10,543 bases of DNA from Candidatus Bathyarchaeota archaeon (GTDB lineage: Archaea; Thermoproteota; Bathyarchaeia; Bathyarchaeales; B26-1). The DNA is taken from contig QMYL01000012.1 in the NCBI GenBank assembly GCA_003662645.1, forward strand, positions 1-10,543. Reading direction: 5' to 3'. The position numbers and the translations under genes were made by a program. The notes under the pieces are model-generated. The model did no database searches. It had not been told where the DNA came from and worked only from the letters and a program-made list of their open reading frames with translations. Positions 1-10,543 of this stretch are shown here, piece by piece. How positions within the stretch are numbered: position 1 is the first letter of the stretch; each line of letters begins with the position of its first letter.

Positions 1-84
1 AGGAAGAGAGTAGAGATCACGAATAGGGCTAGGGAGTTAGGCATACACGTACTGAACCCGGCGAAGCTTAGGGAGCTAGAATAA
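1..84 (+). CDS. rpl32e: Ribosomal protein eL32 (L32e), C-terminal end only
   Basis: The window opens inside a reading frame whose last 27 residues are visible and end in TAA at 82-84. The tail contains RARELGIHVLNPAKLRELE, which resembles the eL32 C-terminus, where a 'LGI.VLNP' motif follows a basic helix. eL32 is a large-subunit ribosomal protein found in archaea and eukaryotes. Its place directly before rpl19e and rpl18 matches the conserved archaeal spc-type order L6-L32e-L19e-L18-S5, which supports a call that rests on only 27 residues. The stop is 19 bases before the rpl19e start, so the genes are probably co-transcribed. The start lies outside the window. Confidence 0.85.
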   Translation, partial: RKRVEITNRARELGIHVLNPAKLRELE

Positions 85-91
85 ACGGGAT

Positions 92-97
92 GGAGGT
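92..97 (+). promoter_or_regulatory. Ribosome binding site deciding the GTG start of rpl19e
   Basis: GGAGGT lies six bases before the GTG at 104. It supports this start for rpl19e, although an ATG overlaps the site itself at 90 in another frame and runs into a stop after five codons. Confidence 0.8.
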
Positions 98-103
98 TTC
101 AGG

Positions 104-556
104 GTGAGCCTAAGAAGCCAACGGAGGCTTGCCGCCGAGATACTTAAGGTAGGTGTGAATAGGGTCTGGATAGACCCAGACAGGATAGAAGAGGTAGAGT
201 CAGCTATAACTAGGGAGGAGATCAGGAAGCTAATCCACGAAGGGGCTATTAGAGCCTTAAAGAAGAAGGGAATAAGCAGAGCCCGAGCTAGGATTATACA
301 CGAAAAGAAGAAGAAAGGCTTGAGGAGAGGTCCGGGGTCGAGGAGCGGAACAAGGAAGGCTAGGCTCCCGAGGAAGAGGATGTGGATGATGAGGATCAGG
401 GCTCTTAGGAGGAGGCTCCGTGAGTTGAAGAGCCGACGTCTCATAGCGGAAGGGGCATACCGCAGGCTCTACATAATGGCCAAGAGTGGAGCCTTCAAGT
501 CCATAGCCGAGATGGAGCGTTACATAGATGCCCATAACCTCTGGAGGCGGCGGTGA
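104..556 (+). CDS. rpl19e: Ribosomal protein eL19 (L19e)
   Basis: This 150-residue, very basic protein is a large-subunit ribosomal protein. The N-terminus SLRSQRRLAAEILKVGVNRVWIDP is the family signature (written here in part: LRSQRRLAAEILKVG then RVWIDP), followed by the conserved stretch around residues 60-90 with RARIIHEKKKKGLRRGPGSR, a lysine/arginine-rich rRNA-binding segment. A helical C-terminal part with RLYIMAKSGAFKS follows. Length equals the usual 145-155 residues of archaeal homologues. The start is GTG with a good GGAGGT site upstream. The stop TGA shares one base with the ATG of rpl18, so translation of the two is probably coupled. Nothing odd is seen. Confidence 0.97.
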   Translation: MSLRSQRRLAAEILKVGVNRVWIDPDRIEEVESAITREEIRKLIHEGAIRALKKKGISRARARIIHEKKKKGLRRGPGSRSGTRKARLPRKRMWMMRIRALRRRLRELKSRRLIAEGAYRRLYIMAKSGAFKSIAEMERYIDAHNLWRRR

Positions 557-1161
557 TGGCTAGGGGTCCGAGGTATAGGGTTCCATTCCGGAGGAGGAGA
601 GAGGGGAAGACAAACTACCGCCTAAGGAGGGGTTTGGTGAAGTCTGGGCTTCCAAGGCTCGTAGTTAGGGGCTCCTCCAGACATATGAACGTACAACTCA
701 TCAAGGCTAGGGTTATAGGTGACGAGGTTATAACCTCAGCCCACTCAAGGGAGCTCGTCAGGGACTATGGATGGAAGGGTGGGTGTGGAAACCTCCCGGC
801 AGCGTACCTAACCGGGTTACTGTGTGGTTATAGAGCCGTAGCTAAGGGGGTCAGGGAAGCGGTTTTAGATATAGGCCTACAGACACCATCACCCGGGGCG
901 AGAGTATTCGCAGCCCTGAAGGGGTTCCTTGATGCTGGAGGGGTCGTCCCACACGATGAGAGTGTACTACCAAGCGAGGAGAGGGTCAAAGGTCAACATA
1001 TAGCGGATTATGCCTCACAGCTATCCTCAGATCCGGAACTATACAAACGCAGATTCTCCAACTACCTAGCAAACGGCCTACCACCAGAGGAGCTACCAAA
1101 ACACTTCCTAGAAGTGAAGGATAGAATAACCTCAAGCTTCAAGGATGAAAGGGAGCTCTGA
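556..1161 (+). CDS. rpl18: Ribosomal protein uL18 (L18), 5S rRNA-binding
   Basis: Large-subunit protein that binds 5S rRNA in the central protuberance. The N-terminus MARGPRYRVPFRRRREGKTNY and the following LVKSGLPRLVVRGSSRHMNVQL are the archaeal/eukaryotic L18 (L5-like) pattern. The mid-part has TGLLCGYRA and LDIGLQTPSPGARVFAALKG, and then the family motif VPHDESVLPSEERVKGQHIA. At 201 residues it has the usual archaeal length. I chose ATG at 556 because GGAGG at 543-547 sits eight bases upstream; an in-frame GTG at 553 would add one Met and is too close to that site. It overlaps the rpl19e stop by one base. The next ribosomal gene is unusually far away (172 bases). Confidence 0.96.
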   Translation: MARGPRYRVPFRRRREGKTNYRLRRGLVKSGLPRLVVRGSSRHMNVQLIKARVIGDEVITSAHSRELVRDYGWKGGCGNLPAAYLTGLLCGYRAVAKGVREAVLDIGLQTPSPGARVFAALKGFLDAGGVVPHDESVLPSEERVKGQHIADYASQLSSDPELYKRRFSNYLANGLPPEELPKHFLEVKDRITSSFKDEREL

Positions 1162-1170
1162 GTAAAGCTC
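1153..1170 (+). terminator. Weak hairpin at the end of rpl18, possible terminator
   Basis: GAGCT (1153-1157) and AGCTC (1166-1170) can pair with an eight-base loop across the stop codon of rpl18, and pyrimidine-rich sequence follows near 1200. This is a short stem with no clear T-run at its foot, so the call is tentative. It fits the idea that the L18 transcript ends before rps5. Confidence 0.25.
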
Positions 1171-1240
1171 TAGAATCATCGATGAATATATTATGAGCGT
1201 TCTCCTTCTCCTGAAGTTGGATTCTCAGAAGCGTACAGAT

Positions 1241-1260
1241 AAGCATATAAGTTTAAATTT
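1241..1260 (+). promoter_or_regulatory. TATA-like element before rps5
   Basis: The AT-rich block AAGCATATAAGTTTAAATTT stands out from its surroundings and resembles an archaeal TATA box region. It lies about 75-90 bases before the rps5 start, so a transcript would have a leader of roughly 50 bases. It may give rps5 its own promoter, in line with the gap after rpl18. Confidence 0.45.
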
Positions 1261-1333
1261 ACTATTCATCTTGAAACCTTGAGGAGTTGAGCGTTAACCA
1301 TAATGCGTAGAGCCAAACCTTCAACGCCGGAGC

Positions 1334-1963
1334 ATGGATGGCATGGAGAGAGCTGAGGAGTGGACGCCTCGTACAAGGCTTGGAAGGATGGTCGTAGAGG
1401 GTAGAATATCAACCCTTGAGGAGGTCTTCCTTGAAGGATTCAAGATAAGAGAGCCTGAGATAGTTGATATACTCGTCCCAAACCTCCAGGAGGAGGTAAT
1501 AAACGTCGGGATAGTCCAGAAACAGACCGATGCAGGAGAGAGACTCCGCTTCAAGGCCATAGTTGCCGTCGGGAACGGAGACGGATACATAGGCCTAGGA
1601 TCAGGTAAAGCCAGACAGGTCCGAACAGCGATAGAGAAGGCCGCCGCAGACGCCAGAAGAAACATAACCATAATCAGACGGGGATGTGGAAGCTGGGAAT
1701 GCGGATGCGGACAACCCCACTCACTACCATTCCAAGTCACGGGCAAATGCGGAAGCGTAAGGATAGTACTAATCCCAGGACCAAGGGGCCTAGGCCTAGT
1801 AGCCAGCGACATCGCAAAGGTGATACTCAGACTAGCTGGGATAAAGGACTGCTGGTCAAGGAGCTACGGCTCAACTAAGACCGTACCATCCTTCGCCTAC
1901 GCCGTCTTCGACGCCCTAAAGAAGACCTACGAGATAATAACCCCTTACGACTGGGTTGGATAG
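1334..1963 (+). CDS. rps5: Ribosomal protein uS5 (S5)
   Basis: Small-subunit protein that acts in decoding accuracy and subunit architecture. The 209-residue product shows the archaeal pattern: EEWTPRTRLGRMV near the N-terminus, EPEIVD at 40-45, then the double-stranded-RNA-binding-like domain (about 50-115) with FKAIVAVGNGDGYIGLGSGKA. The archaeal/eukaryotic insert GCGSWECGCGQPHSLPF follows at about 118-133, and the C-terminal domain contains GPRGLGLVASDIAKVILRLAG and DCWSRSYGST (146-181). ATG at 1334 has only a weak upstream site (CCGGAG); ATG at 1343 (MERAEEW) is a plausible alternative. Archaeal rps5 normally leads into rpl30 and rpl15, but here the next gene is unrelated. Confidence 0.96.
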   Translation: MDGMERAEEWTPRTRLGRMVVEGRISTLEEVFLEGFKIREPEIVDILVPNLQEEVINVGIVQKQTDAGERLRFKAIVAVGNGDGYIGLGSGKARQVRTAIEKAAADARRNITIIRRGCGSWECGCGQPHSLPFQVTGKCGSVRIVLIPGPRGLGLVASDIAKVILRLAGIKDCWSRSYGSTKTVPSFAYAVFDALKKTYEIITPYDWVG

Positions 1964-1994
1964 CCCTTCAGCTCCAAGGTGTAAGGAGCTCGAG

Positions 1995-2507
1995 ATGAAC
2001 CGGAATAGAGAGGATTCAACAAAGGTTAATGTCCAAGGCTTTTTAAGAGAGACAAGCCTCTTGGAGGTTGTTTCAAAGATATTTAGTGAGGAAAGAGTCG
2101 TCCTCGCATCAAACCTGCCGCCTGGTGTTGAGAGGGTTGAGAGGGTAACCGTTGAGGCCGTCAGAATAAAGCTTAGCGAGAAGGTTGATGAGGATCTCCT
2201 TTCATCTATAGCTAGGGAGGAGGGGTATCAGGTTGTTAAGGGAGAATTCTCGCTTAGGGTATTGAGGAGAGGAGCAATTATAGCTAGAGTTGGAAGTAGA
2301 TCAGATCCGGATGGGAGCTTCGACTTATACGTATACCCCATCCCGCCCAAACTGGATGGATTAAGCATATATAGGAGAATCCTAGCGGAGCGTGAGGGTG
2401 TGGTGGATCCAAAAACCGGTAAGATTAATCTTGAGAAGTTCTACGATTTCAACATGGGCATCATAAGGCTCGTGAACAAGTATTTAAAGAGAAAACTAAC
2501 CAAATGA
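1995..2507 (+). CDS. Unrecognised conserved-looking archaeal protein
   Basis: I do not recognise this 170-residue protein. It has no signal peptide and no membrane segment. The sequence looks like a soluble alpha/beta protein: a helical start (FLRETSLLEVVSKIFSEE), alternating hydrophobic segments up to about residue 110 with RVTVEAVRIKL and FSLRVLRRGAIIARVGSR, then DLYVYPIPPKLDG and a helical, basic C-terminus ending LVNKYLKRKLTK. I chose ATG 1995 because AAGGAGCT at 1983-1990 is a good ribosome binding site just upstream; an in-frame TTG at 1956 would overlap the end of rps5. It begins 31 bases after the rps5 stop, so it is probably co-transcribed with it, in the position where L30 is expected. 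Its sequence does not resemble L30. Codon use is like the ribosomal genes (AGG, GAG, ATA rich). Confidence 0.8.
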   Translation: MNRNREDSTKVNVQGFLRETSLLEVVSKIFSEERVVLASNLPPGVERVERVTVEAVRIKLSEKVDEDLLSSIAREEGYQVVKGEFSLRVLRRGAIIARVGSRSDPDGSFDLYVYPIPPKLDGLSIYRRILAEREGVVDPKTGKINLEKFYDFNMGIIRLVNKYLKRKLTK

Positions 2508-2767
2508 TCCATATCTCAGAAATCTCGGGGGAGTGTTGGTGAATTGGTTGATGTAACAGTTCTAGGAGTATTTGTGGCCTCTAAAGCTGAGGGCCTAGAT
2601 GATGGGGAGGCCCTCGAGAGCGAACCTCACCGGAGCCTTGAAGGCCGCTAAGCCTGAGACCAGGGGTAGCCAACGAGGAGCGAGCTTGAGAAGTACTTGA
2701 GACTCATCAGGGAGCTAAAAAGTGATGGGTAAATCGCCGTGAGCCTAAATCTTCCATATAATAATTA
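2508..2767 (+). pseudogene. Decayed coding remnant between two converging genes
   Basis: No intact gene is present, but short coding-like pieces follow one another in different frames. The frame 2544-2651 reads VTVLGVFVASKAEGLDDGEALE and then stops; a shifted frame over 2610-2680 reads ANLTGALKAAKPETRG; a third frame ends at 2730-2732 with ELEKYLRLIRELKSDG. Joined, they would make one small protein of about 60 residues, which suggests a gene that has gathered frameshifts. The product is not recognised. A TTG start at 2544 follows a purine-rich stretch (GGGGGAG, 2527-2533). It may alternatively be ordinary intergenic sequence. Confidence 0.35.
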
Positions 2768-4017
2768 TCAGCTTCTTCTGTAGTAGTTTAGAACCTTGTG
2801 GAGGGCTGTTGATATATCCTCCACGTCCTCCCTAGTGAAGTATTCGTTGCACGGTAATGTTATGAGCTGGCTCAGTATCCTCTCAGCCTCTGGGCATAGT
2901 CCTTCCCCATATTTAACATCCCTGCCGTACATTGGGCAGCACCATGGGCAGCATGTTCCGCCGTATCCCCTCCTCTCGGCGAAGACTAGGGTCTTGTACA
3001 TTGGGATTCCGGTGTAGCTGGCTGAGGCTGGTATGCCCTCAGCCCTTAGGCCTCGGCGATCTCGCTTAATTCGGCCTTGAACTCTGATGCGTCGATTCTG
3101 ATTGGGTAGAGCCAGTAGGAGTGTTTGCAACCCTTCGGGACCGTCGGCGGGGTTACCCCTTCGATGTCGCTTATCTCCTTAGTTAACGCGTCGGCTACCG
3201 CCCTCCTCCTCTCCACAACCCACCTAACCTTTCTAAGTTGGGCCCGTGCGACTGCCCCCTGAAGCTCGGTCATCCTGTAATTGAAGCCTAACATGTGATA
3301 CATCCTAGCTCCCTTGACTGTTCTGTCCCATCCCTTATCCATGAAGAACCTCGCCTTCCTCGCGAGTTCGTCGTCGTTGGTTACGGTTATCCCTCCATCC
3401 CCCGTGAACATGTGTTTGGATTGCTGCATGCTGAAGCATCCGACGTCGCCTATCGTCCCTACCAATCTACCCTTGTACTCAGCTAGGTAGGCTTGGGCGC
3501 AGTCCTCTATGAGGTATATCCCCCTCTCCTCAGCTATCTCCCTCAGGGGGTCCATGTCGCAGGGCAGCCCGAAGAGGTGGACCGCTATTATCGCCTTCGT
3601 CTTGTCCGTTATCCTCCTCTCCACATCCTCTGGGTTTAGGTTGTATGTATATGGATCCAGATCGGCGAAGATCGGTATCGCGTTCTGTCCGAGGATCGCT
3701 ATCATCGTTCCCATATCGGTTATTGGAGTCGTTATAACATCCGCTCCCGGACCTAGACCTATCGCGCCCGTAGCTACATGCAGAGCTGCTGTCCCCGAGG
3801 TTGAGGCTACTGCATGCTTTACGCCCAAGAACTCGGCGAACTCCTCCTCGAATGTTGAGACCATCCTACCGGAGTACCTAAACAAGGAGCCGCTCACGAT
3901 AACCTCCCTAAGCAGCCTAAGCTCCTCCTCGCCGATGTTCCTACCGGACTTGTCGCTGATTGTTGGCAGAGGTTTCTTCCTAACAGGTTCCCCACCGAAG
4001 AGAGCAAGCCTCTCCAA
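2768..4017 (-). pseudogene. DegT/DnrJ/EryC1 family PLP aminotransferase, interrupted by a one-base frameshift
   Basis: Sugar-type aminotransferases of this family move an amino group from glutamate or glutamine to a keto-sugar nucleotide or cyclitol with PLP. Seen here: start region MERLALFGGEPVR, phosphate-binding STSGTAAL at about 73-80, VHLFGLPCD, the Asp that contacts the pyridine ring in IEDCAQAY (about 172), and the PLP lysine in QQSKHMFTGDGG (about 201). The C-terminal part has CPWCCPMYGRDVKY and GLCPEAERI. The first frame stops at 3046-3048, right after SEIAEA; the next frame continues LRAEGIPASASYTGIPMYK to the stop at 2768. One C is missing in a GCC-CTA context near 3049-3051. Repaired length is about 416 residues, normal for the family. 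TTG at 4017 is preferred because GGAGG at 4025-4029 lies seven bases upstream; another TTG is at 4035. The break may be a sequencing error or a real mutation. The exact substrate cannot be told. Confidence 0.85.
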
Positions 4018-4208
4018 GATAGGGCCTCCAGTCAAGGAGGCTTTGAGATGATTCCTTGTAATAAGCCTTTCCTAAGGGTACTAGAACGCTGTTGAGGTAT
4101 GTTTTTTGTTGTTTCGGGGTGCCTTACTCCTCTAGGAGGCTGGGATGTCCAGCGTAACCATCGTTTCGGTTGCATAAGGTTTAGGGCTGTATCACGTATA
4201 TGGCTGGT

Positions 4209-4403
4209 TTAAGCTATAGGGATATGACTGAGAGGATTGTTTAATCCTAGTTTAATCCCGGCCAAGCCGCCATCTACTATCGGATTGAGAATACCAAACA
4301 CTAAAAGACCGCCAACAAAACTTACTTTAACAATATCAAGATAAACAAACAGAGGGAATGCGTATAATGACCAATACATAATCCTATGAAGAAGGACGTT
4401 CAT
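4209..4403 (-). CDS. Possible small hydrophobic protein, not recognised
   Basis: A 64-residue frame with one or two possible membrane segments: SLYAFPLFVYLDIVKVSF and VGGLLVFGILNPIVDGGLAGI, followed by a polar tail LNNPLSHIPIA. Starts are possible at ATG 4403 or at the second Met (MYWSLY, ninth residue). No clear ribosome binding site is visible. It is AT-rich compared with neighbours, which fits a transferred element gene, but AT-rich DNA also yields chance hydrophobic frames. I have no function for it. Confidence 0.25.
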   Translation of the reverse strand: MNVLLHRIMYWSLYAFPLFVYLDIVKVSFVGGLLVFGILNPIVDGGLAGIKLGLNNPLSHIPIA

Positions 4404-4478
4404 AGAGTGAAAAGACTAGAAACATTCATAGAATTTGAACGAGAAATACACGACCTCAACAAAGACGAGAAGCCATAA
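4386..4478 (+). CDS. Possible 30-residue polar peptide or gene fragment
   Basis: ATG at 4386 opens a 30-residue frame, MKKDVHRVKRLETFIEFE followed by REIHDLNKDEKP, ending in TAA at 4476-4478. The sequence is charged and helix-like, unlike random translation, and AT-rich sequence lies upstream. It overlaps the start of the opposite-strand hydrophobic frame. It may be the end of a lost gene (for instance from an integrated element) or chance. Confidence 0.2.
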   Translation: MKKDVHRVKRLETFIEFEREIHDLNKDEKP

Positions 4479-4501
4479 ATAGCCAGAGATAACCTAAAAG
4501 A

Positions 4502-4523
4502 TGGTGGAGGAGATTTGAACCCG
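4502..4523 (-). repeat. tRNA 3'-end fragment directly behind tRNA-Ser
   Basis: On the minus strand this piece reads CGGGTTCAAATC then TCCTCCACCA. It repeats GGGTTCAAATC, the T-loop core of the adjacent tRNA-Ser, and ends in CCACCA like a tRNA tail, but the T-stem does not pair and about five bases are missing. It starts six bases after the CCA of the intact gene, in the same orientation. Duplicated tRNA 3' ends are left when an integrase inserts an element into a tRNA gene, so this may be a decayed attachment site. Confidence 0.5.
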
Positions 4524-4529
4524 AGAATG

Positions 4530-4678
4530 TGGCGCCGGGGGTGGGATTTGAACCCACGCGGCCCCGAGGGGCCACAGGCTCTCCCTCTCCTCTTCGGCTC
4601 CAGGCTTGGGCCCCCTCTTTCCTTTGTTGGGTCTGCTCCCTACCGGATTTCCCGCCTTTAGCTCTAGGAGACCCCGGC
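4530..4678 (-). tRNA. tRNA-Ser (probably GGA anticodon) with about three introns
   Basis: The acceptor stem GCCGGGG/CCCCGGC is perfect, the discriminator base is G as in archaeal tRNA-Ser, and CCA is encoded. The T-arm is GTGGG-TTCAAAT-CCCAC and the long variable arm GGCCCC-TC-GGGGCC marks a class II tRNA. The gene is 149 bases, about 60 too long. Removing 4648-4663 (D-loop), 4606-4632 (between positions 29 and 30) and about 17 bases near 4581-4597 (anticodon loop) leaves about 89. That product has a D-stem, a perfect anticodon stem CAGGC/GCCTG and the loop CTGGAGA with anticodon GGA (4601-4599). The first two introns fit bulge-helix-bulge folds: TCCT/GGGA with cuts AG|A and AA|T, and GAGC/GCCC (one mismatch) with cuts AG|A and AA|G. 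The third intron's ends are ambiguous and its fold is poor. The gene follows the cbf5 stop by 36 bases. Confidence 0.88.
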
Positions 4679-4704
4679 CTCCATATCTCTGATTTTATCG
4701 GTGT

Positions 4705-4712
4705 GTTTTAAG
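4705..4712 (-). promoter_or_regulatory. TATA-like element of tRNA-Ser
   Basis: CTTAAAAC on the minus strand lies about 27-34 bases before the first base of tRNA-Ser, the usual archaeal TATA distance, and just behind the cbf5 stop codon. A second AT-rich patch (GATAAAATC, 4691-4699) is closer than usual. Confidence 0.4.
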
Positions 4713-4714
4713 GG

Positions 4715-5755
4715 TTACTCTTCTCTTTTCTTTCTGCGCCACATCTTTGGGTATGTTCCCTTCGGCATCAGGACTCTCGTGTTCTTTGCCACTATTCCGT
4801 GGTTCATTTCGAGTATATTCTCTGTTGTGGTTGTTGCTTTCGCTAGGGCTACGGCTTCGCCCTTCAGGGTTAGTATCGCTATGGTCTCCTTTGGTTTTAT
4901 CCCTGTCTCGACTGCGACCACCCCTGGGGCCGTTAGGTGGGCTCCGTGGCAGATCGCGTCTACGGCTGAGTCCCTTATGTATACCTTCGGTGTCAGCTCT
5001 AAAGCCCTCTCCATCGGGAGTATGGCCCTCCTTATGAGGGAATCTTCACCCGTCTCTCTCCACCTCTCGTATAGGTATGCCAAGTCGTGGAGGGTTATGC
5101 TACCCTCCTCTGTGAATGGCCCAGCCCTCGTTCTCCTCAACTCGTGCATGTGCGCACCGCATCCCAGGACCTCCCCGACGTCGTGTATCAACTTCCTCAC
5201 GTAGGTTCCAGCCTCGCATCCTATCCTCAATAGGACATTTCTCCCCTCCATCTCCATCATGTCTATGTAGTAGACCCTCCTAACCCTCAACCTCCTCTTA
5301 ACTGAGGCCCTCAAGGGAGGCCTCTGGTAGATTGGGCCTTGGAACTCCTCAAGGGCTGTCTTGACCCTCTCCTCAGGAACCTCCGAGTGGAGCTTCATCA
5401 CACAGATGTACTCCTTCCCAGCCCTCAGTAGAACCTGTATAACCTTAACGGCCTCCCTTAGGGCTATCGGTAGGACGCCGGTCACCTTCGGATCTCCCCA
5501 GCCCTTTCAGGTTTTTCGGGCTTCTAGGGTTCCGCCGTGACCGGCATGCTCTATCTGTAGTATTCTCTTTATCCAGGCCGTTATCTCATGGCTTGTTGGG
5601 CCTGGGGGTTTGTCGAGGTTTATCACGCCGAACTTGAGAAGCTCTTCTACCGGTCTCTCCTCTGGTTTATGTCCGTACTTTGGGTCAGTCTCCGCATCCG
5701 CTTTGATTATGAGTTCCCTCTTTACCTCCCATGGAGCTGTTAACTTCCGCATCAC
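4715..5755 (-). CDS. cbf5: Cbf5 (TruB-family) tRNA/rRNA pseudouridine synthase, spliced gene
   Basis: Catalytic subunit of the archaeal H/ACA ribonucleoprotein, which converts uridine to pseudouridine in rRNA guided by small RNAs; it can also modify tRNA position 55. The coding sequence is complement(join(4715..5493,5524..5755)), giving 336 residues, normal for archaeal Cbf5. Exon 1 carries the N-terminal extension, LKFGVINLDKPPGPTSHE (about 40-57) and HAGHGGTL. Exon 2 completes DPKVTGVLP; the catalytic Asp is residue 78. It then contains AGKEYICVMKLH, GPIYQRPP, a second active-site region CEAGTYVRKLIHDVG and a C-terminal PUA domain (from about 250, with VYIRDSAVDAICHGAHL and TRVLMPKGTYPKMWRRKKREE). 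Unspliced, an in-frame TGA at 5507-5509 ends the protein at 82 residues. Starts are GTG 5755 or ATG 5752, with GGAG at 5762-5765. rpl14e lies 62 bases upstream, as in many archaea, and tRNA-Ser follows. Confidence 0.95.
5494..5523 (-). other. 30-base bulge-helix-bulge intron in cbf5
   Basis: The 5' side reads CGGA-A-CCCT-AGA-AGCCC and the 3' side GGGCT-GGGG-AGA-TCCG. AGCCC/GGGCT form the inner helix with a 13-base loop, CCCT/GGGG the four-pair central helix, CGGA/TCCG the outer helix (one extra A), and each side has a three-base AGA bulge. Cutting AG|A on both sides and joining gives CTA-GAT-CCG (Leu-Asp-Pro), exactly the family motif GGTLDP. The intron lies in phase 1 of the catalytic Asp codon. 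Introns in archaeal cbf5 removed by the tRNA-splicing endonuclease are known from Crenarchaeota. Confidence 0.93.
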
Positions 5756-5790
5756 CTACTTCTCCTACGAATAAGGAGATCATACTTCCA

Positions 5791-5800
5791 CGATAATAAA
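5791..5800 (-). promoter_or_regulatory. TATA-like element before cbf5
   Basis: TTTATTATCG on the minus strand lies in the 62-base gap between rpl14e and cbf5, about 40 bases before the start. It may give cbf5 its own promoter, leaving a leader of about 10-20 bases that holds the GGAG site. Confidence 0.35.
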
Positions 5801-5817
5801 TGGTGGTGTGAGGTTTG

Positions 5818-6114
5818 TCACCTCCCTCCTTTCTCCCCAGCCTCTTCGAGTTTCTCCTCAGGCGCCTCGATCTCACCCGCCTCGGCTAGGGCCTTTATGA
5901 CCTCCTCATCGGCAGCCCTCCTTCGGATCTTTATCTTCTTCTCTGTCGGTTTGAGGTGTTTTATATTCGCCCTCCTCCTTTTAACCCCTGTTATACTCTT
6001 CGGGCCAGTAACGAGGACGAAGTTCTTGTCGATTATGTCGACTATCACGCAGCGCCTCCCAGCCTCCCGGCCGGCCACCTTAACACAGATCCTACCAACC
6101 TCGATCGCTGGCAA
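5818..6114 (-). CDS. rpl14e: Ribosomal protein eL14 (L14e)
   Basis: Large-subunit ribosomal protein with an SH3-like KOW fold near the N-terminus. Seen: [37 protein letters not shown] and [16 protein letters not shown], the archaeal L14e pattern, then a basic stretch [14 protein letters not shown] and an acidic-helical C-terminus rich in Glu. I place the start at TTG 6114 because AGGAGGA (6123-6129) lies eight bases upstream and the family begins at this point; this gives 98 residues, the usual size. The frame stays open upstream to 6207, but that extension ([18 protein letters not shown]) has no family similarity and covers the probable promoter. The gene is followed by cbf5, a frequent archaeal pairing. 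Confidence 0.94.
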
Positions 6115-6156
6115 GATTTCGGTCCTCCTCGTTTTCTGAAGAAAGATTAACACCTC

Positions 6157-6170
6157 ATACTTATACTTAT
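6157..6170 (-). promoter_or_regulatory. TATA-like element before rpl14e
   Basis: ATAAGTATAAGTAT on the minus strand lies 43-56 bases before the TTG start of rpl14e. It resembles an archaeal TATA box and lies in the frame extension that I reject as coding, supporting both calls. Confidence 0.45.
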
Positions 6171-6208
6171 CGAGGCTTGGACTGGTCTGTCCAGCTGGTT
6201 TCCCCAAC

Positions 6209-7414
6209 TCATCTTATGGTTACTACAGCTATGTAGAGCGATATCGTCGTTACGGCGTCTGCCAAGGAGCTCTCTATCGGTATCACGAAGTTATCTGGGT
6301 TTAGGGCTCTCTTGAAGGTTGATATGGCTATCGAGAAGACTATGAAGACCATAACCGAAACCGAGAGCAGGTTCGTAGCCGTGATCTGAGCTAGAAGCCT
6401 CAGAGGATTGACCGAGTTGAGCACATTGCAGACAGTTGCCGCTGTCATGGAGTATAGGATGAACATGACGATCGAGGCTGCCCATGCGTTCAGTATCTCC
6501 GTTGTGTGTTCTTTAATCGATGAGAGAGATGACTCGATCATCCCGGTGAAGAGCTTGGTTGTGGCTGTAGAGCCGATTATCGAGCCTGTATCCCCAACGG
6601 TATCTATCAAGGCTGGATAGACGAGGTATACCTCGGGTCTACTTCCAACAGCCTCCCTTATCCCGCTTAGGAAAAGGCCCGTTACACTCGTTATCACGGT
6701 TACGGAGAGGAGCGTCAGGGTGAACTCCTTAAGGGTCCTCGTGAACTCCTCATCCTTGAAGTTCTTGTACAAGGATGCCAGAACGACCGAGAGGAAGGTC
6801 AGATCGATCAAGACGGTGAGGTGGAGACCTAATCCGCCGGAGAAGAATCCCCAGAGGAGCTTGATGTAGGTGAACGTTACGATTATATCGGCAACGGTCG
6901 ATGTAATCGGGTAGACCATTATATCCGGATCCAGCCCCCTCTTGAAGGATAGAAAAGAGATCGCTATGGTTATTGGTGATACTATCAGGAGAGAGAGACC
7001 CATAGAGCCGACGGCGATGCACAGTATATCCAGGTAACCCCTCAAAGTTGCCCTCCAGATCACCAAACCGATCAGGAAGGAGACCGACCCCATCATTAGA
7101 CAACTTAGGAAGGCCAGAACCGTTATCGAGGATAGGAGAAGGTAGAAGTCCCGCGTGTTCTCGCCATAACTCGGTTTTATCGTTCCAAGGTGTAAGCTCG
7201 TGCTTAGACGTCCGCTGAGAATCCCTCCTATGGCGCCTTTAACTGTTAGTATTCCTGGTAGGAGGATTATGGCCCACGGGATCGTTGAGAATACATCGAT
7301 GTTTATGGCTAGGATGAATCCAGCTAGTAACCCGCCCAAGTTGAAAGAGAGCGATAATATGGACTGCACAAGACGGCGGAGAACCCTCGATGTCTCTATT
7401 TGGAGGGTCACCAT
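6209..7414 (-). CDS. MgtE/SLC41-like divalent-cation transporter, two fused membrane halves
   Basis: Integral membrane protein of 401 residues with about ten hydrophobic segments, likely a magnesium or other divalent-cation channel/transporter. It shows internal two-fold symmetry. [21 protein letters not shown] (51-71, shown without its last residues: LSTSLHLG) corresponds to [20 protein letters not shown] (265-284). [20 protein letters not shown] (158-177) corresponds to [20 protein letters not shown] (368-387). In MgtE the matching Pro/Asp segments line the cation pathway. Soluble N and CBS domains of bacterial MgtE are absent, so this is the SLC41-like double-domain form seen in archaea. 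Start ATG 7414 or GTG 7411, with GAGGGGG just upstream. The stop lies about 95 bases before rpl14e. The ion is inferred from the family, not shown. Confidence 0.85.
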
Positions 7415-7661
7415 CCCCCTCGCCCCCGGCCATCCAACACCTACCTCCTACATCAATCGAGCTCCTCATGGAACCTCCTACGTAGACCGTGGTTGGCGGA
7501 TCCTTATCTCCCAGTCTGCTCCATTCGGTTGTGGTTATTATTTTGTAATAGTCCATCCCGTCGGCTTGACCGGTCGTCATTATATTCCTTTCTATCCCCC
7601 AACCGGTCGTTCGTGTTTCTCTAATTTGAGTAGAAACCACACTTAAAGGTGTTTTGCTCAT
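7239..7661 (-). CDS. Doubtful upstream frame, possibly leaderless
   Basis: A 140-residue frame starts at ATG 7661 and its last 176 bases overlap mgtE in another frame. The part before the overlap (about 82 residues, with MDYYKIITTTEWSRLGDKDPP and TVYVGGSMRSSIDVGG) has fairly natural codon use; the overlapped part does not look like a protein. A TATA-like TTTTATAG (7682-7689) lies about 21-28 bases before the ATG, so a transcript could begin at the start codon. It may equally be the untranslated leader of mgtE. I recognise no family. Confidence 0.2.
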   Translation of the reverse strand: MSKTPLSVVSTQIRETRTTGWGIERNIMTTGQADGMDYYKIITTTEWSRLGDKDPPTTVYVGGSMRSSIDVGGRCWMAGGEGDGDPPNRDIEGSPPSCAVHIIALFQLGRVTSWIHPSHKHRCILNDPVGHNPPTRNTNS

Positions 7662-7681
7662 CTTGGTTGGCGTGAGATATC

Positions 7682-7689
7682 TATAAAAT
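7682..7689 (-). promoter_or_regulatory. TATA-like element upstream of mgtE
   Basis: TTTTATAG on the minus strand is the best promoter candidate for mgtE. Transcription would begin near 7660, which leaves a leader of about 245 bases before the mgtE start, or a leaderless start for the frame at 7661. Confidence 0.35.
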
Positions 7690-7740
7690 TGCCTACCTTA
7701 GAGTTTTACGGGGAGGACGTGGCAACTTAAGCATTTATTA

Positions 7741-7752
7741 TTGACCGGTCAA
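7741..7752. promoter_or_regulatory. Palindrome TTGACCGGTCAA, possible operator
   Basis: A perfect 12-base palindrome upstream of the TATA-like element for mgtE. TTGACCGGTC recurs at 7566-7575, and ACCGGTCGT occurs at 7569-7577 and 7602-7610. Repeated symmetric sites around a promoter suggest a dimeric regulator, but no regulator is known from the window. Confidence 0.3.
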
Positions 7753-7850
7753 TTCCCATCTTTCCTTTTTCATTCACACAACTTAAACGAACTCTAATAT
7801 TATGCAACTTGCTGACGAGTTAAAGACGGAACTTCGTAGATTCTGTTGAT

Positions 7851-7946
7851 TTGAACTTCGCCACATCTGAGCAAGTTGCCGCACATGAACTCGGCCTAAA
7901 CGTTTCTAAAGTCTGCGAAAATGCCCTAAAAGAAATCATACAATGA
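7851..7946 (+). pseudogene. Short remnant resembling a CcdA/VapB-type antitoxin C-terminus
   Basis: The frame from TTG 7851 to TGA 7944-7946 encodes 31 residues, NFATSEQVAAHELGLNVSK then VCENALKEIIQ. The segment 'LGLNVSKVCENALKEII' is typical of small archaeal antitoxin-like proteins of toxin-antitoxin pairs. The N-terminal DNA-binding ribbon and a usual start are missing, and a stop lies upstream in frame at 7820-7822. A different frame at 7802-7849 (MQLADELKTELRRFC) may hold another piece. It ends 36 bases from the 3' end of tRNA-Val, a usual place for integrated elements. No toxin partner is visible. Confidence 0.4.
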
Positions 7947-7962
7947 CTAACACAGACAAACA

Positions 7963-7981
7963 TGAAAAATAATCCCAAAAA
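7963..7981 (-). terminator. T-rich terminator behind tRNA-Val
   Basis: On the minus strand the sequence after the CCA of tRNA-Val has two T-runs (five T at 7977-7981 and a second run near 7964-7968). Archaeal transcription often stops at such T-runs without a hairpin. Confidence 0.5.
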
Positions 7982-7982
7982 G

Positions 7983-8110
7983 TGGTGGGCCGGGCCGGAC
8001 TTGAACCGGCGATCTCAGCCTCTCTCAACCTTGACTTCTCTCCTCATGGTTCGTAAGGGCTGCTTTAGGTCCCAGTTTGGGAAGTCCTAACCTCGCTAGA
8101 CTACCGGCCC
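7983..8110 (-). tRNA. tRNA-Val (UAC anticodon) with two introns
   Basis: Acceptor stem GGGCCGG/CCGGCCC with A73 and encoded CCA; D-arm GTCT...GGAC with the loop AGCGAGGTTA; T-arm GCCGG-TTCAAGT-CCGGC. The gene is 128 bases. Intron 1 (8064-8083, 20 bases) lies between positions 25 and 26: TAGG/CCTA form the central four-pair helix, TCCC/GGGA the inner helix, with bulges AC|T and AA|G. Intron 2 (8022-8051, 30 bases) is at the canonical position 37/38: CTTA/TGAG form the central helix (one G-U pair), ACC/GGT the inner helix, with bulges CG|A and AG|A, and the anticodon stem CAGCC/GGCTG is the outer helix. Removal leaves 78 bases with loop CTTACGA and anticodon UAC at 8055-8053. All arms pair. Confidence 0.94.
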
Positions 8111-8140
8111 TCCAGGTATTATTAATTCCCTCATGAATTT

Positions 8141-8150
8141 TAATATTTAT
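8141..8150 (-). promoter_or_regulatory. TATA box of tRNA-Val
   Basis: ATAAATATTA on the minus strand lies 31-40 bases before the first base of the tRNA, in an AT-rich gap behind the surface-protein gene. It fits an archaeal TATA box if transcription starts a few bases before the mature 5' end. Confidence 0.6.
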
Positions 8151-8227
8151 CGTTATGTTTGCCGTTTTTCTTGATTGAAAAGACCCTTGGGCTTGTGTAT
8201 TTGTGGCTAGTTCGGTTACGTGTAGAC

Positions 8228-10543
8228 TTATGGTCTCCTCCTGAGGAGGAGGTATATGGCTACACCTATGGCTATCAGGGATGCGATGGTGGTCGTTGTT
8301 ATGAACCATGGTTGGAGCCATATCGGCTGCGGTGGTAGACCCCTCAGGTGGCATATCACCTCATGTGTGCTTAGGGTGTAGGTTACGGTTAATAGGTATG
8401 CGTCGGCCGTCTCGGTGTAGGTGTATGGAACCACCTCACCGTCCACGGTGACTGTGACATCATCTATCGAGGAGCCTAGGTCGGCCAGCAGGTTCTTCGG
8501 GATAACGAACCTTATAACCGCGGTCTCGCCGGGAGGCCCGCTGACCACAACCTTGAGGGAGTTTCCGTCCAAGAGTTGAACAGGCTCTTTAACTGTTGCG
8601 TTCGTTAGGACCATAACCCTATACTCGCCGCTCTCTGTGATTATGCTCTCCGTTGACCCCCCACTCCATCCTGATATGGTTGCGTTTATGTAGTCCAGTT
8701 TTGCCTCTATCACTCCGGCTAGGGTCTCCATCTGGATGAGTATCTCCCCCCCAGCTGTGGCCGTGACGTTATGTATTGTCGCGTTCAGTTCGTCTAGTTT
8801 AAGCTGGATTACGCCTACATCCGTACGTATCCTTGTTATGTTCCCTTCTATAGACGTTATCGTTGCGTTCATCTGGGTGAGTTTGATCTCTAAGGCGTTA
8901 AGAAGCTCGACGAGCTGCAGGCTGTCAAGGTACACCATTACATCACCTATGGAAGTCGTTAAGTTGGCGATTATCTGACCCTTAACATCGGTTATCAAGT
9001 TTGTTATCGTTACGTTCATCTCAGCCAGCCTCACCTGGATGATCCCTACCTCAGTCTTGATCAGAGCCGTCTCGTTCTCTATCGCTAGGAGGGTTACGCT
9101 CCACCCTGTTAATGTCTCGCTCAGCAGGAAGCTCTTCACTGAGGCCCCCTTGGACTCAGCTGTCTCGGTGATGTAGCTTGCTTTCACAAGCAGCGTGTAG
9201 GTACCCTCAGGAGCGTCAATCGGAATTGTGTACGCCACCCTGTACAGTCCGGTGGATACAAGCTCAACGTTTCCGGTTAGGTCTTCGTATAAGGTTCCGT
9301 TTGAGTAGTACAGGATAGCCTTCTCTATCGTCGCGTTCACCGGTTCACCGTTGAAGGTTATAAGGATGTAGAATTCGGCTACCTCACCCTTAAAGTGTAT
9401 AGAGCCGACATCAAGCTCTATGTTCAAGGGAGTTACATAGACGACGGTCACGTTCCCGGAGGCTGACAAACCGGATTCATCTATGGCCTCAACCGAGTAT
9501 ATGCCGGGTTCAGCAGCAGAGACCACGAAGTACACCTCGAAGGAGCCATCCTCATCAACCCGAATTCCCGTCAAGATCAGCTCTCCATTGAATGTCAGGT
9601 TAACCAAGCTTCCGGCCGTGAACCCGCTTCCCCTAACAGTCACCATGAAGCTGCCGAAGCCCTTATCCGGTATGAGCGTTATCCTAGGCGGCTCCGGCGG
9701 GGGCTTAACCTGAAGAATGAGCGTTGCCACATGCCTCTCACCGTCCCCGCCCACCCCGATAACGTGTATGGTGTAGTTTCCAGACGGCGTATCCTGGGAT
9801 GTCTCTATGGTCAGTATCGAGTTATACTCGGGCATACCAACGCTAGGTTGTAACGTTACGTTTATCGTATCTTCCGAGGGTGTAACTATCGGGAATAGCT
9901 CAACTGAGTAGGCATAGCCATGCTGCGGCGTGACGGTGACAATAGCTTCAACTCTCCCCCCAGCCTCGACTACGCTGGAGTTCGGCGTAACCTGGAGGCT
10001 GAAGTCCATCAAGACAGCCTCCTCCGCTGTCAGGACGTTTATGGACCTAACCTGTGAGTAGCTCCCATTATTTCCGGCTAAGTCAACTGCGAAGACTCTC
10101 CAGTACCAGGTTCCAGCTCCTAGGAATGAGCTCCCACAGATGAAGTATGGCTGAGGGCCAATGGTCTCGTTTGATATTACTCCTCCAGCGAAGCTTTGGG
10201 TCCTTGAGAACTGGATTACGTAGTGGCTTATCGCTTCCTCCTCGCCTAATGTGTTCGTATGGACCATCTCCCATGTGAAGATTGGGTATTCACTTGTAGT
10301 CGCGCCGTCTTCTGGGAGATATAGGGTTGGTGAGGATGGGACATCATCATCCGCGGCGATGAGGGCGAATATACTCTCAGTGAAGAGTCCAGACTCCGTC
10401 ACATTGTTCGGGTTTACGGTTCCATCAATCGATGACCAGTCCATCTCCCCATCGGTCTCGCCATACCTGGATATGTGAAGCGTATCCATGAGCCTTGTGA
10501 GGGGTATCTCCTCCCGATAGAAGCTTATCGTTATGTTTCTAAC
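8228..10543 (-). CDS. Large membrane-anchored surface glycoprotein, N-terminus outside the window
   Basis: 771 residues are visible, open at the window end; no signal peptide can therefore be judged. In order: a fibronectin-III-like domain (about 70-170, with FTWEMVH and GTWYWRVFAVDLAGNNGSYS); an Ig-like domain (about 178-280, DFSLQVTPNSSVVEAGGRV); an IPT/TIG-like domain (about 285-370, ITLIPDKGFGS and VRGSGFTAGSLVNLTFNG); a further beta domain (about 372-460). Next comes a helical, coiled-coil-like stalk (about 489-625), then a final beta domain with GPPGETAVIRFVIPKNLL and a C-terminal membrane segment (FITTTTIASLIAIGVAIYLLL) before RRRP, so most of it faces outward. Asn-X-Ser/Thr sites are very frequent (about 20), as in archaeal S-layer or stalk proteins. 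I recognise no named family. It may be an S-layer stalk, adhesin or substrate-binding surface protein. No enzyme motif is visible. Confidence 0.85.
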   Translation of the reverse strand, partial: VRNITISFYREEIPLTRLMDTLHISRYGETDGEMDWSSIDGTVNPNNVTESGLFTESIFALIAADDDVPSSPTLYLPEDGATTSEYPIFTWEMVHTNTLGEEEAISHYVIQFSRTQSFAGGVISNETIGPQPYFICGSSFLGAGTWYWRVFAVDLAGNNGSYSQVRSINVLTAEEAVLMDFSLQVTPNSSVVEAGGRVEAIVTVTPQHGYAYSVELFPIVTPSEDTINVTLQPSVGMPEYNSILTIETSQDTPSGNYTIHVIGVGGDGERHVATLILQVKPPPEPPRITLIPDKGFGSFMVTVRGSGFTAGSLVNLTFNGELILTGIRVDEDGSFEVYFVVSAAEPGIYSVEAIDESGLSASGNVTVVYVTPLNIELDVGSIHFKGEVAEFYILITFNGEPVNATIEKAILYYSNGTLYEDLTGNVELVSTGLYRVAYTIPIDAPEGTYTLLVKASYITETAESKGASVKSFLLSETLTGWSVTLLAIENETALIKTEVGIIQVRLAEMNVTITNLITDVKGQIIANLTTSIGDVMVYLDSLQLVELLNALEIKLTQMNATITSIEGNITRIRTDVGVIQLKLDELNATIHNVTATAGGEILIQMETLAGVIEAKLDYINATISGWSGGSTESIITESGEYRVMVLTNATVKEPVQLLDGNSLKVVVSGPPGETAVIRFVIPKNLLADLGSSIDDVTVTVDGEVVPYTYTETADAYLLTVTYTLSTHEVICHLRGLPPQPIWLQPWFITTTTIASLIAIGVAIYLLLRRRP
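8675..9079 (-). repeat. Degenerate 'I..KL..(M/L/I)NATI' repeats in the stalk of the surface protein
   Basis: Four related segments occur in the helical stalk: EVGIIQVRLAEMNVTI, ALEIKLTQMNATI, DVGVIQLKLDELNATI and AGVIEAKLDYINATI. They combine heptad-like spacing of hydrophobic residues with a glycosylation site at the end of each, which suggests a glycosylated coiled coil. Similarity is at protein level more than DNA level. Confidence 0.7.

Follow-up and report, generated by a model that had tools for sequence, protein, structure and literature searches.

Introns of archaeal tRNA and rRNA genes are of the bulge-helix-bulge type. A pre-mRNA intron in cbf5 was reportedly described by Watanabe in 2002 from Desulfurococcales and Sulfolobales. 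In the available passages of a 2009 survey by Yokobori, the cbf5 introns of these two orders measure 16–44 bp, their border lies between bases 1 and 2 of the catalytic Asp codon, and cleavage takes place after the second base of the bulge (PMC2738675). Introns of 33, 36 and 39 bp preserve the frame in four species, and the same passages argue that these still have to be removed because the catalytic codon is broken. By our own count, five of the 28 intron rows in Table 1 of that survey are multiples of three (3n). The survey further assigns the intron to the ancestor shared by Desulfurococcales and Sulfolobales, reports no intron for Thermoproteales, Cenarchaeum, Nitrosopumilus and Korarchaeum, and recalls the group's earlier proposal that the intron acts as a negative regulator of Cbf5. 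Our literature search found no test of whether Cbf5 expression depends on the intron as proposed. A passage of a 2020 paper names a single further bulge-helix-bulge intron as reported from archaea until then, the crenarchaeotal one of cbf5 (PMC7714728).

We analysed a window of 10,543 nt from a Candidatus Bathyarchaeota archaeon (assembly GCA_003662645.1, contig QMYL01000012.1, positions 1 to 10,543), in which an initial annotation had proposed that a 30-base intron splits the catalytic Asp codon of cbf5. This intron agrees with the crenarchaeal ones in its gene, its exact position, the bulge-helix-bulge with its cut rule, and the size range (30 bp, inside the published 16–44 bp), and its frame-keeping length also occurs in some of the published species. 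It differs in its host, a member of Bathyarchaeia outside Desulfurococcales and Sulfolobales, and in the breadth of the set to which it belongs: 60 coded families in at least three classes here as against two orders in PMC2738675, and sizes of 13–76 nt as against 16–44. The annotation correctly treated archaeal cbf5 introns as known beforehand, the published crenarchaeal set occupying the same site (PMC2738675), but it had set this one apart as very short, a multiple of three and located in the catalytic codon itself. Since the window intron fits each of the published features given above, its size, frame and position are all ordinary for a cbf5 intron. With archaeal tRNA and rRNA introns it shares the motif and presumably also EndA and RtcB as processing enzymes (PMC6379350, in the part available); unlike them, it sits in a protein-coding gene and has, at 30 nt, no room for a homing-endonuclease ORF. 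It is a known kind of intron in a host group for which we found no report. In the open-licence literature, we found no earlier account of a wide cbf5 intron range or of the stop rule described below, and the combination of Bathyarchaeota, cbf5 and intron led only to PMC7714728, whose available passages do not link them.

The cbf5 locus

The gene lies on the minus strand, downstream of a ribosomal protein L14e gene on the same strand (5818..6207; NF003320, 122.8 bits). Exon 1 (5524..5755, with the GTG at 5755 taken as start from the ORF finder listing) matches positions 5–73 of NCBIfam CBF5, and its last base is the G of the catalytic Asp codon; exon 2 (4715..5493, stop codon included) matches positions 74–322. 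At the junction, the minus strand reads GGA ACC CTA G-AAGCCCGAAAAACCTGAAAGGGCTGGGGAG-AT CCG AAG, where the enclosed stretch, from 5523 down to 5494, is the 30-nt intron (5494..5523) as delimited by sequence, fold and same-site relatives. Removal of these 30 bases between bases 1 and 2 of the Asp codon restored a full-length Cbf5 in the sequence. Against NCBIfam TIGR00425 (CBF5; cut-off 238 bits), the exon-1 piece scored 85.8, the exon-2 piece 334 and the spliced protein 445 bits. A search of the window's own genome for the cbf5 family returned one gene only, seen as two exon matches; over exon 2, Bathyarchaeota B26-1 and B26-2 come closest to it among named relatives (77 and 75% identity). In the unspliced frame, codon 6 past GTL is a TGA within the intron (5507..5509, minus strand), and the resulting ORF 5507–5755 yields a stub of 82 aa, as had been annotated.

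A 101-nt minimum-energy fold contained the complete bulge-helix-bulge at –42.7 kcal/mol, whereas shuffled sequences averaged –28.2 (z –4.67; none of 200 shuffles was equally low). It includes the two AGA bulges that the annotation had named (5′ bulge 5523..5525, 3′ bulge 5493..5495), an inner helix of 5 bp (AGCCC:GGGCU) and a central helix of 4 bp, in which exonic CCCU (5526..5529) pairs with GGGG at the 3′ end of the intron (5496..5499). Following the published rule (PMC2738675), each bulge would be cut as AG/A; the cut sites were inferred from the restored reading, which agrees with the GGTLDPKVTG given earlier. The outer helix (limits 5489..5534; CGGA 5534–5531 paired with UCCG 5492–5489, A5530 unpaired) is weaker than in most relatives and requires a one-base slip, because this cbf5 has a Gly wobble A and a Pro wobble G. 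A loose scan of the window for bulge-helix-bulge motifs returned 28 places on the minus strand, the cbf5 intron included, and 33 on the plus strand; with 61 loose matches over both strands, a generic motif count was dropped as a significance test. What carries the case for the intron is its position and frame together with the energy of the fold and the relatives, and not just the motif. On these grounds, exact coordinates, fold and same-site relatives uphold the proposed split of the Asp codon, and we consider the predicted bulge-helix-bulge intron of the window's cbf5 confirmed at sequence level.

Conservation of the intron structure

An alignment of 38 distinct introns served for covariation analysis and for the construction of a covariance model, R1, which these 38 match by construction. 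In the alignment, 91.0% of the cells were paired as compared with 81.5% after shuffling, and 56 cells had changed on both sides as compared with 19.3, a number that none of 500 shuffles reached. Sliding the partner by one base reduced pairing to 58.5 or 53.8%. In the central helix 145 of 152 pairs were formed, and none of 10000 re-pairings was equally good; all four central positions were paired in 116 of 124 distinct intron genes. Within the window's own genome, the cbf5 intron was the sole R1 match at E up to 0.01 (4.2e-14), which is not independent evidence because the window intron is among the 38 used for building the model.

The exon side of the structure showed marked codon differences. 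The Gly codon was GGG in 87 of 124 intron genes and in 5 of 56 intronless ones, the Leu wobble base was A in 116/124 versus 23/56, and the Pro codon was CCC in 89/124 versus 18/56. The intron structure thus seems to shape exon wobble bases too, as far as can be read from the sequences; the difference could partly reflect codon preference, since intron and intronless genes differ in lineage. In seven bathyarchaeal loci, pair three of the central helix is a U-U or C-U mismatch, which seems to be an unconventional motif that is stably inherited.

Distribution across the phylum

Loci were sampled non-randomly, at first a few per family and later from other listed rows. Of 359 loci, 352 could be parsed. 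They represent 297 distinct gene sites, of which 241 carry an intron and 56 are intronless. The seven unparsed loci comprised two EndA loci, two entries of a single gene (L071 and L347) and three others (L083, L184, L202). The same-site intron was thus present in 241 distinct genes, and in all 241 its removal restored the Asp codon. These genes were called from sequence, separately from the R1 genome counts. At E up to 0.01, R1 had matches in 190 of the 398 genomes sampled across the phylum; in the class of genome G207 the figure was 102 of 118. Matches occurred in 27 of 44 genomes in the class of genome G148 and, at E up to 1e-4, in 131 of 250 genomes of the window's own class. For classes beyond Bathyarchaeia, a name is given only if there is a match to a named locus: in genome G163, from the class of G148, Cbf5 and intron are identical to those of archaeon HR02, placed in Caldarchaeales by the NCBI taxonomy. 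Weak matches also occurred in genomes with an intronless cbf5, so that not everything counted at E up to 0.01 is an intron; matches in G416 (9.6e-5), G035 (2.8e-4), G276 (0.003) and G145 (0.0056) were rejected as introns, the last being located elsewhere in its contig, away from cbf5. In the window's order, 50 of 61 genomes (its own included) had a TruB_N match, and in many of these the site showed a stop or a broken frame.

Outside the phylum, a small sample obtained with the exon-2 query contained nine named loci, all intronless. Eight belong to Hodarchaeota, Heimdallarchaeota, Thermoplasmata or Thermoplasmatota, and Micrarchaeota, and the ninth (L065) is named as Euryarchaeota and was placed among Thermoproteota rows on the Cbf5 tree. 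L083 (Methanomassiliicoccales) was left out as unparsed.

Some members of the set fall outside the published size range. Same-site introns of 67, 76 and 57 nt were found at three loci (L164, L200 and L132), exceeding the published maximum of 44, and five loci (L126, L139, L145, L206 and L208) have introns of 13 nt, below the published minimum of 16 and so short that little room is left for the inner helix. At another locus (L098), the exon-2 frame of cbf5 extends over 506 codons and the protein has a long branch (1.12), which may indicate a fusion.

In-frame stops in introns of readable length

Sorted by length modulo three, the 241 introns fell into 52 with remainder 0, 92 with remainder 1 and 97 with remainder 2, so that 3n lengths were under-represented (one-sided p 4e-5). 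The deficit persisted with one intron per genus (38/153, p 0.014, with each locus that lacks a group code entered separately) and with one per family (10/60, p 0.003). The final round of sampling took all ten remaining 3n-length rows and only ten others, a choice that favoured 3n lengths and therefore works against the reported deficit. Every one of the 52 3n introns carried an in-frame stop, compared with 105 of the 189 others read in the exon frame (Fisher 6e-12). With one intron per genus the proportions were 38/38 and 64/115, and with one per family 10/10 and 24/50. The gene entered as L071 and L347, which the parser had dropped, has an 18-nt intron with a stop at the third codon and also obeys this rule. 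The TGA of the window and its 82-aa stub are one case of a rule valid throughout the set.

Among 51 distinct 3n introns, a length-matched expectation gave stops in 30.1. Their other two frames held stops in 13 and 8, close to the 13.1 and 10.9 of shuffled loops. All three stop codons were used (first stops TAA 19, TAG 18, TGA 14). The first stop fell at codon 3, just past the inner helix, in 19 of 51 3n introns and in 47 of 180 others; with these omitted, a stop was present in 32/32 versus 51/133. When resampled at one per genus, the observed 3n share of 0.242 was near the 0.224 predicted by loss of stopless introns, and the scarcity of 3n lengths fits such a loss. On the tree described below, 18 of 89 introns were 3n, a state requiring at least 16 changes. 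A pairing test of low power on that tree (13 pairs) placed the stop with the 3n length in 4.7 pairs on average, the opposite in 0 and no difference in 8.3 (median p 0.06).

Introns of other lengths were also rich in exon-frame stops (98/180 versus 59.4 shuffled), which may be left over from lengths that were once readable, or may reflect a wider benefit of early termination. In these genes, read-through cannot yield Cbf5 because the frame is shifted; across the 99 of them that were measured, the unspliced reading continues for a median of 4 and no more than 86 codons past GTL. As the 3n introns carry stops and the others shift the frame, no unspliced message in the set encodes full-length Cbf5. 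From these sequence patterns, we infer selection against translating unspliced cbf5 into a full-length protein with a dead active site.

A related pattern is known from ciliates: stopless 3n introns were reportedly found to be counter-selected in Paramecium by Jaillon in 2008. To our knowledge, nonsense-mediated decay is not known in archaea, and the gain here may therefore be the avoidance of a full-length Cbf5 with a broken site. In the available passages of PMC5014332, ciliate introns of 3n length are likewise too rare and rich in in-frame stops, and nonsense-mediated decay presumably catches the short introns that are retained. Those introns are spliceosomal and come from genome-wide sets, whereas here a single bulge-helix-bulge intron is followed over a phylum, and its stop rule has no exception in the set.

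Several other explanations bear on the broken frame and its stops. A fragmented genome (231 contigs, 81% complete) could suggest a decaying or mis-assembled cbf5, in which the TGA and ten codons would be a disabling insertion or sequencing error and no splicing would occur. Both exons, however, are intact and conserved, they form the sole cbf5 found in that genome, and 241 distinct genes with the same site as well as the helix covariation make a decaying gene, a frameshift or an assembly error extremely improbable. Decoding of the TGA as an amino acid, with the ten residues as a genuine protein insert, would suit a frame that is otherwise open on either side. Yet the ten residues would interrupt the catalytic motif, relatives use TAA, TAG or TGA, and lengths shift the frame in 189 of 241 genes; relatives with a stop-free in-frame insert, which the initial annotation had named as evidence against its intron, were found at none of the 297 distinct gene sites. 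We regard this as the least probable reading of all, with a likelihood close to negligible. The stops themselves might be frequent for structural reasons, as part of a loop after a fixed helix, rather than through selection on translation, and the first stop does often fall at codon 3, directly past the inner helix. We hold this to be very unlikely, given that the excess is limited to the exon frame and persists without the codon-3-stop introns, and that 3n lengths are too rare by about the share expected to be stopless.

Probable origin and losses of the intron

A quick maximum-likelihood tree was built from 130 Cbf5 proteins, 89 of them from genes with the intron; 43 of its 127 inner branches were open, many forks were weak, and the outgroup did not form one clade. 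Intron presence required at least 17 changes on this tree, and shuffled labels at least 28 (500 trials). With equal weights, a single gain plus 16 losses tied with five gains plus 12 losses. When a gain was set to cost 1.5, 2 or 3 losses, a single gain was best; at a cost of 5 or 20 the intron was placed at the root, with 19 losses and zero gains. Six families (f5, f6, f7, f25, f38 and f59) mix genes with and without the intron, and these look like intron losses. Because the reconstructions infer 12 to 19 losses, the intron looks dispensable. A single old origin is likely, short of proof.

Instead of one old intron, the phylum-wide pattern could have arisen by independent insertions that hit the same codon several times, as the equal-weight tie between five gains with 12 losses and one gain with 16 losses would allow. 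That tie disappears once a gain costs at least 1.5 losses (1.5–20 tried), where one gain or a root placement is best, and intron ends are alike across classes, though partly forced by exon pairing; repeated insertion is, in our view, doubtful. A different question is whether the intron is a regulatory switch, with splicing setting the level of Cbf5 as proposed for crenarchaea in the available part of PMC2738675. The unspliced message giving only a stub is in line with this, but loop length is free, from 13 to 76 nt, and the 12 to 19 inferred losses point away from it, although they are compatible with regulation where the intron is retained. We consider a regulatory role improbable, more so than repeated insertion.

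Predicted splicing and its possible consequences

The window's genome encodes two EndA proteins (ORFs of 190 and 189 aa) and RtcB. Residues 13–189 of the 190-aa EndA align with solved EndA chains (3p1z, which we take to be Aeropyrum pernix EndA) and keep the His of GIDHAP; the second EndA lacks a His at the aligned place. Judged from these alignments, the pair fits a two-subunit enzyme with one catalytic and one structural subunit. Crenarchaeal two-subunit EndA is associated with a broad substrate range in the part available of a review (PMC6379350), a property that goes back to a crenarchaea-specific loop.

We propose that the cbf5 message folds so that the last exon-1 bases CCCU pair with GGGG at the intron 3′ end. 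By analogy with the published crenarchaeal cases, the predicted heteromeric EndA would cut both AG/A bulges, and an RtcB-type ligase would join the exons and rebuild the Asp codon. Unspliced messages would be translated only as far as the intron TGA, giving 82 residues. Read-through would be selected against, the likely harm being that a Cbf5 whose active site is dead could still become part of H/ACA particles. We assign a probability of about 0.94 to this main reading, namely a bathyarchaeal cbf5 intron that would be spliced via EndA and RtcB, with its stop guarding against read-through. A broader reading, in which archaea have used translation to police cbf5 splicing for as long as much of the phylum has existed and the intron is an ancient phylum character and not a crenarchaeal novelty, is in our judgement only slightly favoured over its negation. 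If true, unspliced cbf5 is translated often enough to force a stop into every intron of readable length, because H/ACA particles would be poisoned by a Cbf5 of full length whose active site is ruined.

Of all archaeal pre-mRNA introns, the one described first is thus no longer confined to two orders but spans much of the phylum, and with this wider range the question of its age changes. The absence of stopless readable introns offers a handle on the fate of archaeal unspliced messages under coupled transcription and translation. In many such genomes, automatic gene callers probably split or truncate cbf5.

Neighbouring ORFs

Three further ORFs on the minus strand of the window were inspected. 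The one at 3046–4035 encodes a sugar aminotransferase-like protein that scored under the cut-off of every NCBIfam family listed. A 401-aa ORF at 6209–7414, which had no NCBIfam match, appears by eye to encode a membrane protein with two similar halves. The 753-aa ORF at 8228–10489 resembles, again by eye, a surface protein, with repeat-like stretches and a C-terminal hydrophobic segment.
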